64,000 bases of DNA from contig NZ_CP060694.1 in NCBI RefSeq assembly GCF_014352935.1, positions 372,001-436,000 on the forward strand, read 5' to 3'. The stretch is from Aliarcobacter cryaerophilus (GTDB taxonomy: Bacteria > Campylobacterota > Campylobacteria > Campylobacterales > Arcobacteraceae). Made by a program: the position numbers and the translations under genes. Each line of letters starts with the position of its first letter. The first letter of the stretch is position 1. This document shows, piece by piece, positions 4,254 to 46,820 of the stretch. The notes below the pieces were generated by a model that searched no databases, was not told where the DNA came from, and worked only from the letters and a program-made list of their open reading frames with translations.

Positions 4254-6206
4254 ATGGCAAATCTGGTTGATATTTTTACACAGACAAGTGGTTTAAAAGG
4301 TGAAGCAACAGTTTTAAGCACAAGTGAAGATTTGCCAAAAGATAAGCCATCTTTATTTGATTCTCTTCTAAAAACTTCAATAGAAGATATTGAAAACAGT
4401 TCAGCACAAAATACAAATTCAAAGATAGTATCTCAAAATATTACTTCAAATTTAGAAAAGAGTCCTTTGGATGCAGAAGTTATAGAGGTTAATACAAAAT
4501 TGATTGATGAAGGTTTCGATTCTCAAGCTATTAATTTGGATGAAAATTCAAATAGTGAAGAAGTTATAAAAGATTTATCAAAAAACATAACAAATGAGTT
4601 AAGTAAAGATAATACAAAAAAAGATGAGATAAAAGAACCTACAAAAAATATTCAAAATAGTATAAGTAGTAAGAACTCATTACTAGATAGGTTAGTTTTG
4701 GAAGTAAAAAATAGTAATTTAGAACAAGTACCTAAAGTTGAGCAAATTTTAAGTGAACCTTCGGAAAATGCTGATGTTTTAAGTACTGATAAGAGTTTTA
4801 TAAAATCTTTAGATAAAGTTATTGAAGGCTTAAAAAATCAAAATAATTTAGAACAAAAATTAGATAGTGAAAAAATTATAATTTCTAAAGATGATAAATT
4901 AGTAGAGATAATAAAAGAGCAAGAAATTCTTATAGAAGATATAAATGGAAATAATTTACAAATAAAAGATGACAACAGTCAAAATTTTGATGATGTAACT
5001 TTAGAAACAACTCAAAATTTATCGCAAATAATAGTAAATAGTGAAGATAGACAAAATGTAGAAAATCAAATTGAAACTTCTGTAGTTTTAAAAGATAGTT
5101 TAAATTTTGAAAATATTTTGATTGTTGAAGATGAAGTTGTAAAGAGTGATGCTATCAAAAATGAAACTGTAAAAAATGAAAACAAATTAAATTCACAAAA
5201 TATTTTAATTGTTGAGAATGAAATTGTAAAAACTGAAAACAATACGAAAGTAGATCAAAAATTATCTCTTATGGATCAATTAATTCAAACAAACAGTAAA
5301 AAAGATATTACAACAAAAATAGAAGAATCTGCTACTTCAAATCCTCAAAGCGTAGAGCAAATTAATAAAAATTCAAAAGAGGTTGCCTCAAATATTTTTT
5401 TAGCTGAGCAAAAAAATAGTTTGAATAATCAACTACTTTTTAATAAAAATGAAGCAGTGAATATTTTAAAAAATGCTTCAAGTATTGAAGATATAGAAAA
5501 AAGTGCAAATATCTTAGATTTAGATGCAAATAATTTAGAAGTTGAACAAAATATCTCTAGTGAGAGTTTAAATGATTTAAGTGTAGATGAAAAAGAGATT
5601 TTAGATAGAAAAAATATTTTAAATAGTATTTTAAATGAAAAAAATATAAGAAGTGTAGATGTTAGAAATCTTATAACAAACTCAATAGAGGCTTCGAAAG
5701 CCCTTTTGGAAGATACTATAAATATTTTAGATGATAAAATTTTGGATATTCAACCAAATTTGGTAAATTCAATTCAATCAAGAATTGTTGGAGCAAAACA
5801 GCAAATGGCTTCTATGATGTCAGATGTTGCAAGACAGATGTATGAAAACTATAAACCGCCTGTTACTGTTTTTAGAATGAATTTAAATCCTGGAGATTTA
5901 GGAACTATTTCAGTTTTAATGAAACAAGATAAGTCAAGTGGATTAACTATTAATATGAGTGTTTCTAATATTGCAACACTAGAGCTTTTAATGGAAAATC
6001 AAAATATGTTAAGAAACTCATTGGCAAAAACATTTAATGATAGTGCAAACTTTAATCTTGATTTCTCAAAAGGAGAAGGTGGTCAAAGCCAAGGAGACTC
6101 TTCAAGTAATCAAAATCAAAGAGATAAAAGAGATTCAAACACTCAAGAGATATTAAGGCTTAAGAAAGAGAATAAAGATTACGAAGAGAAAAACGATTAT
6201 ATGTAA
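4254..6206 (+). CDS. fliK: Flagellar hook-length control protein FliK
   Basis: This 650-residue protein is mostly a low-complexity, Asn/Lys/Ser/Glu-rich region (residues about 20-490) that contains a degenerate internal repeat around NFENILIVEDEVVKSD and NSQNILIVENEIVKTE. The C-terminal domain (about 520-610) contains FRMNLNPGDLGTISVLMKQ and LELLMENQNMLRNSLAKTF, the hook-length control fold that contacts FlhB and switches export specificity. The long unstructured ruler region is typical of FliK, and its length varies greatly among species. The last codon overlaps the fliR start. Confidence 0.85.
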   Translation: MANLVDIFTQTSGLKGEATVLSTSEDLPKDKPSLFDSLLKTSIEDIENSSAQNTNSKIVSQNITSNLEKSPLDAEVIEVNTKLIDEGFDSQAINLDENSNSEEVIKDLSKNITNELSKDNTKKDEIKEPTKNIQNSISSKNSLLDRLVLEVKNSNLEQVPKVEQILSEPSENADVLSTDKSFIKSLDKVIEGLKNQNNLEQKLDSEKIIISKDDKLVEIIKEQEILIEDINGNNLQIKDDNSQNFDDVTLETTQNLSQIIVNSEDRQNVENQIETSVVLKDSLNFENILIVEDEVVKSDAIKNETVKNENKLNSQNILIVENEIVKTENNTKVDQKLSLMDQLIQTNSKKDITTKIEESATSNPQSVEQINKNSKEVASNIFLAEQKNSLNNQLLFNKNEAVNILKNASSIEDIEKSANILDLDANNLEVEQNISSESLNDLSVDEKEILDRKNILNSILNEKNIRSVDVRNLITNSIEASKALLEDTINILDDKILDIQPNLVNSIQSRIVGAKQQMASMMSDVARQMYENYKPPVTVFRMNLNPGDLGTISVLMKQDKSSGLTINMSVSNIATLELLMENQNMLRNSLAKTFNDSANFNLDFSKGEGGQSQGDSSSNQNQRDKRDSNTQEILRLKKENKDYEEKNDYM

Positions 6207-45488: not shown

Positions 45489-45701
45489 TTAAAATTCAAT
45501 ACTCAAAATATTTGCAAAATTTTTTAACTCTATTAATATCTCATCATTTGTCATATTTCCTATTTTACTACTAATTGGAATTGCAATAAAATCATTAAAA
45601 GGTAAATTGTCTTTAAATACAAGTACTGGTCTTTTTTTTGATTCATTTAAATTGCTAAAATAGAACTCACAAAGTACAATATCAAAAGTTTTTATTTCCA
45701 T
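45489..45701 (-). CDS. PemK/MazF-like toxin, probably truncated at the C-terminus
   Basis: This 70-residue protein begins KTFDIVLCEFYFSNLNESKKRPVLVF, the typical PemK/MazF RNase beginning, and continues FIAIPISSKIG. Family members usually have about 110-120 residues. This one stops after ANILSIEF, where others continue through the second half of the barrel. The stop is 15 nt from coaX. The start overlaps the antitoxin gene by 10 nt. It may be inactive or a minimal form. Confidence 0.6.
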   Translation of the reverse strand: MEIKTFDIVLCEFYFSNLNESKKRPVLVFKDNLPFNDFIAIPISSKIGNMTNDEILIELKNFANILSIEF

Positions 45702-45907
45702 ATATTATCTTCTTCTAAGTCTTGCCAATCTTCTATAAGGTTTGCAGAATGGTTTGAAAATAGTTTTGTATCTTCATTGTCATCTTTTGATACTGTTTTT
45801 TGTTTTTTCTCTTCTAAAATTTTTATTTTATTATTGTCAAGACTTTTTAGGAAAAACATTATATGGTTATAAATATCATCATTTATTTTTAGTTTAACTG
45901 TATGCAT
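45692..45907 (-). CDS. Antitoxin of the PemK-like module
   Basis: This 71-residue protein has a beta-strand/helix start (HTVKLKINDDIYNHIMFFLKSL) and an acidic C-terminal part (ANLIEDWQDLEEDNIWK). This layout is common for small Campylobacterota antitoxins, with an N-terminal operator-binding/dimer part and a toxin-wrapping tail. It overlaps the toxin gene by 10 nt. Its promoter (-10 TATAAT on the minus strand at 45936-45941) lies in a 55-bp repeat shared with the next antitoxin gene. Confidence 0.65.
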   Translation of the reverse strand: MHTVKLKINDDIYNHIMFFLKSLDNNKIKILEEKKQKTVSKDDNEDTKLFSNHSANLIEDWQDLEEDNIWK

Positions 45908-46391: not shown

Positions 46392-46493
46392 AAAAGTAGC
46401 AGTAATAGGGGAGTGATGAATTCCCCCATGTTTTCCAATTAATAAAGTCTGGTTGCAAAAACCATCAATATTAAAAGTATTACTGCTATTTTT
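46392..46493. repeat. Long-range inverted repeat enclosing most of the small peptide ORF
   Basis: AAAAGTAGCAGTAATA (46392-46407) pairs with TATTACTGCTATTTTT (46478-46493), 16 positions with one G-T pair. On the minus strand it joins codons 3-8 of the peptide ORF to its 3' UTR. On the + strand it would be a stem followed by T residues, which could end an antisense RNA. Confidence 0.6.
46408..46426 (-). other. 3'-UTR hairpin with loop complementary to the sRNA loop
   Basis: On the minus strand GGGGA and TCCCC pair around the loop ATTCATCAC. The loop bases TCATCAC are complementary to GTGATGA in the loop of the sRNA hairpin at 46608-46629; including adjacent stem bases the complementarity is 11 nt (46409-46419 with 46615-46625). 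Confidence 0.55.
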
Positions 46494-46501
46494 TGATACA
46501 T
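46439..46501 (-). CDS. 20-residue hydrophobic peptide, candidate type I toxin
   Basis: The ORF encodes MYQKIAVILLILMVFATRLY: a short polar start, a 12-residue hydrophobic stretch and a TRLY end, the size and character of Ibs/TisB-class membrane toxins. AAAAGG (46508-46513) lies 6 nt before the ATG. The start region is complementary to the 5' end of the adjacent sRNA, and the coding start also pairs with the 3' UTR. No clear promoter of its own is visible; it could be expressed by readthrough of the sRNA terminator. No homology is claimed. Confidence 0.5.
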   Translation of the reverse strand: MYQKIAVILLILMVFATRLY

Positions 46502-46561
46502 TAAAAACCTTTTAATGAATTACCCACCCGAGAGTTAAACCCTTGCCAAAATCCACCCAGC

Positions 46562-46592
46562 AAAAAAAAAGGTAAAGCTAAAAAGCTCTACC
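46562..46592 (-). terminator. Rho-independent terminator of the sRNA
   Basis: On the minus strand GGTAGAGCT pairs with AGCTTTACC (one G-U) around TTTT, followed by nine T residues. It is one of the clearest terminators in the window. Confidence 0.85.
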
Positions 46593-46650
46593 TTCTTCTA
46601 ATCCATCTATTGGGTCATCACTCCCAATAAGGTTACTATGCATCAAAAAC
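46562..46650 (-). ncRNA. Candidate antitoxin sRNA, about 89 nt
   Basis: A consensus promoter on the minus strand predicts a start near 46650, and a strong terminator ends the RNA near 46562. A hairpin (TATTGGG/CCCAATA, 46608-46629) displays the loop AGTGATGA. The 5' end has TTTTTGATGCAT, complementary to the first 12 bases of the peptide ORF with one G-U pair, and AACCTT, complementary to its AAGGTT ribosome binding site. The loop matches a loop in the peptide mRNA 3' UTR. A 21-codon ORF inside it is probably fortuitous. Confidence 0.65.
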
Positions 46651-46656
46651 GTAAAT

Positions 46657-46685
46657 ATTATATCAAACTACAAAATTAAAGTCAA
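46657..46685 (-). promoter_or_regulatory. Consensus sigma-70 promoter of the sRNA
   Basis: On the minus strand TTGACT (46680-46685) and TATAAT (46657-46662) are separated by exactly 17 bp. A clear -35 box is rare elsewhere in this window, so this is an unusually strong promoter. It lies just downstream of the porin gene terminator. Confidence 0.8.
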
Positions 46686-46756: not shown

Positions 46757-46810
46757 GAGCTGGGATTAAAATCCCAGTTCCAAAAAGAGGTGGGACTGAA
46801 GCCCCACTTC
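46757..46810 (-). other. Two tandem hairpins in the porin mRNA 3' UTR
   Basis: GAGCTGGGAT/ATCCCAGTTC (46757-46766 with 46771-46780) and GAGGTGGGAC/GCCCCACTTC (46787-46796 with 46801-46810, one mismatch) form two GC-rich stems between the porin stop codon and its terminator. They probably protect the abundant mRNA from 3' exonucleases. Confidence 0.6.
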
Positions 46811-46820
46811 CTAAGAGAAA

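Follow-up and report, generated by a model that had tools for sequence, protein, structure and literature searches.

A probable type I toxin-antitoxin family of the Campylobacterales with its antitoxin RNA upstream of the toxin on the same strand

What is encoded by a module in which a promoter, an RNA of 89 nt with its terminator, a G-rich spacer of 60 nt, a Shine-Dalgarno (SD) sequence, a 20-codon open reading frame, a GGGGGAATTCATCACTCCCC hairpin and a closing arm follow one another in series? Such a module occupies positions 46685-46392 on the minus strand of the window, a stretch of 64,000 nucleotides of Aliarcobacter cryaerophilus DNA. An earlier note on this DNA had proposed a type I toxin-antitoxin system, in which a hydrophobic peptide is controlled by a small RNA (sRNA) encoded in tandem. 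Here, we describe a comparative analysis of the element and its relatives. Comparison strongly favors the type I reading: the short ORF is under constraint, the RNA contacts are copy-specific, the closure of the mRNA covaries, the neighboring genes are unrelated, and antitoxins occur without toxins, while no toxin was found without its antitoxin. The module probably represents a new type I family spread across the Campylobacterales, in which the antitoxin lies upstream on the same strand and the toxin mRNA would arise by terminator read-through.

The components were located where the earlier note had placed them (Table 1). The consensus promoter TTGACT-17-TATAAT precedes an RNA of about 89 nt that closes with a strong terminator, and the ORF for the hydrophobic peptide, preceded by an SD sequence, begins about 60 nt beyond the predicted RNA. 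The predicted 3' end of this RNA reads AAGGTAGAGC-TTTTTA-GCTTTACCTT and falls inside a run of nine Ts. The same architecture was seen in 52 segmented copies, with an upstream promoter matching 8-12 of 12 consensus positions (mostly 10-12), an sRNA of 81-100 nt and a spacer of 40-71 nt.

Table 1. Features of the module, in window coordinates
Feature	Position	Strand	Remarks
Promoter TTGACT-17-TATAAT	46657..46685	-	11/12 consensus, top score within 3.5 kb; near-perfect sigma-70
Predicted antitoxin sRNA, about 89 nt	46562..46650	-	promoter and terminator; 81-100 nt in members
sRNA contact a, TTTTTGATGCAT and AACCTT	46629..46649	-	pairs with SD and ORF start; cognate test z = -23
sRNA hairpin TTGGG-AGTGATGA-CCCAA, loop = contact b	46610..46627	-	5/5 pairs changed on both sides
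sRNA linker, contact c (ATGGATTA)	46599..46606	-	partner is the leader upstream of the SD; z = -12.1, 49 copies
sRNA intrinsic terminator	46562..46594	-	stem covaries
G-rich spacer and putative toxin 5' leader, including c' (46522-46515) and SD AAGG (46511-46508)	46502..46561	-	without promoter signal
Putative toxin ORF, 20 codons, MYQKIAVILLILMVFATRLY, ATG at 46501	46439..46501	-	codon-position differences 0.41/0.19/0.57; peptide conserved across families
Closure helix 5' arm, within first codons of ORF	46478..46493	-	16 nt, 94%; 6/8 core pairs changed on both sides
3'-UTR hairpin GGGGGAATTCATCACTCCCC, loop = b' (YUNR motif)	46408..46427	-	YUNR in 41/49 loops
Closure helix 3' arm	46392..46407	-	covariation and inverted-repeat search

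The gene upstream of the module encodes a Campylobacter-type major outer membrane protein and has its own terminator; downstream are small ORFs, one of which is PemK/MazF-like. This latter ORF (window 45489-45701, minus strand; 70 aa, matching positions 2-59 of 109) is probably a truncated type II toxin, and a further small ORF (45692-45907, same strand) directly precedes it. Two adjoining hairpin repeats of the form GGAASTG...CASYTC (46757-46811, minus strand), the only two clear copies in this genome, are located between the module and the porin gene; hairpins resembling them flank the elements at loci L020 and L103.

The element is present once in its own genome. The relatives that the earlier note had proposed to seek in other Arcobacter genomes were found: a covariance model built on the mRNA part identified 40 copies, distributed over 24 of the 104 Arcobacteraceae genomes and eight genera. 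The same model gave matches in 26 of 398 genomes across the phylum and, in a second family, detected copies in 59 of 228 genomes. A DNA search had reported relatives in 19 of the 31 genomes of the genus, some of its weak matches being chance; the low-scoring BLAST matches L012, L014-L019, L026, L027 and L030 are chance or unrelated terminators, and L123 and L209 were rejected as chance. Named carriers include Arcobacter caeni, A. cryaerophilus and a Sulfurimonas MAG, and one copy resides near an integrase gene on pACIB, a mobilizable plasmid of Aliarcobacter cibarius whose annotation has no gene at the match. A 2.5-kb MAG contig labelled Lutibacter (JAGPIQ010000250.1, L053) holds a copy near-identical to that of Aliarcobacter locus L025, and was probably mis-binned. 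A search of phages for the element gave no match, and viral contigs lack a 19-mer that is conserved in the spacer. A 20-base hairpin pattern matched 18 times in viral contigs, in no case with such an ORF, and most of its matches outside the Campylobacterota are chance.

A serial RNA, a terminator, a short ORF and a hairpin look similar to a leader peptide or attenuator that governs the next gene. The genes around the copies, however, have little in common. Only 51 of 325 flanking ORFs have a counterpart near another copy, and 74 Pfam families are represented among 82 neighbors, none of them more than three times; no downstream gene recurs throughout the family. The neighbors being unrelated, the module is not the leader of one gene. 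Coding constraint on the peptide, a closure helix and sRNAs that stand alone, all described below, would likewise be unexpected of an attenuator, and we give this explanation almost no credence.

Both the peptide and the complementarity of its mRNA to the sRNA are conserved in related genomes, as seen in the coding constraint of the ORF and in a test of cognate pairing in 49 copies. Differences between copies are fewest at second codon positions and most frequent at third positions (0.41/0.19/0.57), as expected for a translated ORF, which argues for coding constraint. The peptide has 20 codons and a conserved hydrophobic core, although the uniform length is partly by construction, since the ORF search demanded 20 codons. 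Position 10 is leucine in all 49 copies, and the C-terminal residue is Y or H in the 52 segmented copies. An ATG, TTG or GTG stands at the start of the ORF in 49 of these 52; the other three have TTA, ACG or ATA at the aligned position. Three loci from genera g12, g8 and g6 (L204, L205 and L208) form a divergent subfamily, which is alike in layout and has a different peptide, e.g. MKGYIVTRLLIILVVVGIILVVPLY.

The pairings described in the earlier note were recovered by an unguided inverted-repeat search of the element, which used no prior knowledge of them. This search joined the sRNA 5' end (46638-46649) to the first 12 bases of the ORF (46490-46501; 12 nt, 92%), the sRNA hairpin loop (46615-46625) to the 3'-UTR hairpin (46409-46419; 11 nt, 100%), and the start region of the ORF (46478-46493) to its own 3' UTR (46392-46407; 16 nt, 94%). 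The proposed match of the sRNA AACCTT to the AAGGTT ribosome binding site of the ORF was found as well (46634-46629 with 46511-46506). Beyond these, there is a third sRNA-mRNA contact, c, absent from the earlier note, in which the sRNA linker (46606-46599) is complementary to leader sequence ahead of the SD (46522-46515).

Pairing within one sequence is partly possible by chance; chance is ruled out here by the comparison of cognate and non-cognate partners and by the covariation of the closure helix. Duplex energies were calculated for each sRNA against each mRNA of 49 non-redundant copies. The covariation of sRNA-ORF pairing that had been suggested as a check takes the form of partner tracking: at contact a, energies were -21.1 kcal/mol for cognate and -9.4 kcal/mol for non-cognate pairs (z = -23), and the own mRNA was the best partner in 40 of the 49 copies and among the top three in 46. 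The cognate advantage at contact c was -10.7 versus -7.1 (z = -12.1), and that at contact b -15.7 versus -13.3 (z = -6.6), the specificity of b being low because its sequence is conserved. These z values were computed without a relatedness model; control segment pairings, which have the same relatedness and are not expected by the model, gave z values of -0.1 to -3.5. In the distant copies L125 and L163, the loop of the sRNA, TTGGCTA, and that of the 3' UTR, TAGCCA, are altered jointly. A further candidate contact between spacer and 3' UTR (GGGAGTG/CACTCCC) is complementary, yet barely copy-specific (z = -2.6), and was rejected.

Seven genomes contain two or three copies, and in these nearly every sRNA clearly prefers its own mRNA start site over that of the other copy, the weak exception being L029 in genome G026 (-11.0); copies that share a genome are largely orthogonal at contact a. 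The second copy in genome G008 (L058, the same as L020; minus strand of the locus, ORF at 4617) has the appearance of a natural recombinant. Its sRNA 5' end misfits its own ORF (-7.9 kcal/mol) and fits the toxin of a copy in another genome, L031 (-22.9), and a neighboring copy, 1 kb away, has an sRNA that fits the ORFs of both (-22.0).

Antitoxins encoded on the opposite strand, of the aapA/isoA kind, occur in this phylum, and a cis-antisense arrangement was weighed for the module. The best -10 match on the opposite strand scored 4.5, versus 4.6 in shuffled sequence, across the 49 copies, whereas the sRNA encoded on the same strand is conserved and changes in step with its target; we regard a cis-antisense antitoxin as very unlikely. 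Two loci from genus g33 of family f2 (L122 and L126, about 1120-1620) do suggest such a layout. They bear tandem copies of a similar peptide of 19-20 residues, with a sense TATAAT some 80-100 nt upstream and an opposite-strand TATAAT, in TGCTATAAT, inside the ORF. Their layout is aapA/isoA-like and their toxin appears related; the toxin may have been coupled to two antitoxin layouts.

The helix that closes the first codons onto the 3' UTR covaries within the coding region, six of eight pairs having changed on both sides; the hairpin and terminator stems of the sRNA covary as well, and all five pairs of the hairpin are altered on both sides. A U-turn motif of the YUNR type is present in the 3'-UTR loop of 41 of the 49 copies, compared with 43% of shuffled loops. 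When the full-length RNA was folded, 43 of 49 minimum-energy structures had the 5' part of the sRNA paired with the start region, which suggests that a long read-through RNA would be born silent.

Whether the peptide is toxic was approached through the occurrence of the two halves. Two of the 40 mRNA-model matches in the Arcobacteraceae lie at contig ends, and the other 38 all have an sRNA upstream (37 identified by an sRNA model and one, L157, by eye); a toxin half lacking its sRNA half was thus found in none of the 38 assessable cases. Nine sRNAs, by comparison, have no toxin (G021:C17, the first in G021:C13, G054, G004:C56, G100:C1, G026, G009, G103 and G075:C65). If either half were lost equally often, a 9:0 split would have a two-sided probability of 0.004, a figure to be read with the caveat that loss of the sRNA may also remove a shared promoter; the asymmetry is weaker if one promoter is common to both halves, because loss of the sRNA would then also silence the toxin. 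The loci with solitary antitoxins are L195, L196, L197, L198, L199 (first), L201 (first), L203, L206 (first) and L207. Some of these loci are cut off right behind the T-run and others at the ORF start, and the solitary sRNAs could be anti-addiction RNAs.

Toxicity of the peptide is judged likely in view of these orphan sRNAs in the absence of orphan toxins, the unrelated neighbors, and the toxicity of IbsC, a peptide of similar make-up. A small membrane peptide under the same riboregulation might instead modulate without killing, and the lack of any family match for the peptide would be in keeping with such a role. We consider this unlikely, in view of the patchy, multi-copy occurrence of the element among unrelated neighbors and on a plasmid, the existence of orphan sRNAs and not of orphan ORFs, and the multiple layers of silencing, which are typical of toxins.

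The earlier note gave no start for the toxin mRNA; the sequence favors read-through from one promoter. The 40-71 nt between sRNA and ORF hold no promoter signal above chance: across terminator tail and spacer, the best -10 hexamer has on average 3.1 of 6 matching positions, compared with 3.6 in shuffled sequence, and the best two-hexamer match is 5-9 of 12. The lack of such a signal between the two parts suggests that the toxin mRNA is probably a read-through product of the antitoxin terminator, although an unusual promoter would be compatible with it. Type I systems are usually built with a separate promoter for the toxin, which here would give two independent tandem transcripts, and the conservation of the G-rich spacer across genera could mean a promoter of unusual kind. 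Spacers of 40-45 nt, however, leave little room for both a promoter and a leader bearing c', and together with the hexamer scores this makes a separate toxin promoter possible, if on balance doubtful. The spacers, in the window (46502-46561) as in all members, are strikingly G-rich against an A+T-rich genome. Every copy has at least three G runs, usually at least four, and a two-tier RNA G-quadruplex is possible there.

We therefore lean, with some reserve, towards a type I system with one promoter, in which the toxin mRNA would supply its antitoxin as a terminated leader RNA, terminator read-through would set the ratio of toxin to antitoxin, and the toxin mRNA would carry the antitoxin in cis and need to be cut before translation. 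The strong promoter would yield the 89-nt RNA ending at the intrinsic terminator, and this terminated RNA would be the abundant antitoxin; rare transcripts that read through would be the toxin mRNA. Holding the antitoxin sequence in its own leader, the read-through mRNA would fold closed and be silent at birth. Free sRNA would silence processed mRNA that has lost this leader, with pairing that begins at the hairpin loops and then extends to the start site. Upon loss of the sRNA, processed open mRNA would be translated, and the peptide would enter and damage the inner membrane. If the one-promoter layout is true, its control logic is one of which we know no example among characterised type I systems, and it is directly testable.

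New here are the family itself, three partner-specific contacts and, likely, the single promoter. Type I systems are hard to detect because both parts are tiny and unannotated, and this family spans an order with food-borne and environmental bacteria. Its natural covariation is ample enough for it to serve as a model for how an antisense RNA and its target can diverge and yet remain matched, how paralogues are kept apart within one genome, and how solitary antitoxins are left behind.

As the earlier note had supposed, no system of this form seems to have been described in Arcobacter: we found no paper describing such a toxin-antitoxin type for either Arcobacter or Sulfurimonas and no entry for the family in Rfam, Pfam, NCBIfam, PHROG or PADLOC. 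A survey of intergenic RNAs in Arcobacter sp. L left most genus-restricted motifs without a name (PMC6429828), and this element may have been touched there unnamed. No Rfam 15 covariance model matched the window at gathering score, and sub-threshold matches over the element are scattered and far under the cut-off. The peptide matched no known toxin family. Marginal NCBIfam matches to TatA (E 0.02 and above) reflect hydrophobicity, the Pfam model Ibs_toxin (PF13956) found nothing in the own genome at E up to 10, and membership in Ibs was rejected, six family peptides giving no Ibs match.

In Escherichia coli, Sib is encoded on the strand opposite ibs, whereas the antitoxin here lies upstream on the same strand. 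Sib has two target-recognition domains, and pairing is multi-site here too. IbsC, of the same general make-up as the present peptide, is a 19-residue hydrophobic helix that is toxic at 15 residues and requires its C-terminal part (PMC8309996). The aapA/isoA systems of Helicobacter pylori, from the same phylum, likewise combine a small toxic peptide, in aapA, with an RNA antitoxin. IsoA is transcribed in antisense, from the opposite strand; the RNA described here, in contrast, is encoded upstream on the same strand and makes three separate contacts, and the peptide is unlike in length and sequence. A long-distance 5'-3' interaction keeps full-length aapA mRNA silent, and trimming of the 3' end activates it (PMC6733600). 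The covarying closure helix is an interaction of this type, a likeness in working and not proof of membership.

In par/Fst-RNAII of Enterococcus faecalis, the antitoxin contacts its target at several separate sites, namely the 5' repeats and the terminator that both genes use (PMC8167048), and multi-site pairing is likewise found here. The par genes are convergent, with a common bidirectional terminator and a 33-residue toxin with a charged tail, whereas the present module has both parts on the same strand, a separate terminator and no DNA common to the two RNAs, and the two sides of each contact evolve separately. A U-turn motif aids loop pairing in par/Fst-RNAII, and the YUNR form of it recurs in the loops described here. 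Parallel orientation is already known among type I antitoxins (PMC8167048), and the same-strand order alone is thus not new. The ribosome binding site of zorO is masked by its own 5' UTR (PMC8309996). Both zorO/orzO and tisB/istR of Escherichia coli resemble the module in having an adjacent, trans-type sRNA with no DNA in common. In these two systems, the primary mRNA is inactive until its 5' end is processed, and the genes are divergent, each with its own promoter. The present module differs from them in its same-strand order, the absence of a promoter signal between its parts, its other peptides and its three-part contact, and it has in common with hok the 5'-3' closure of the mRNA.
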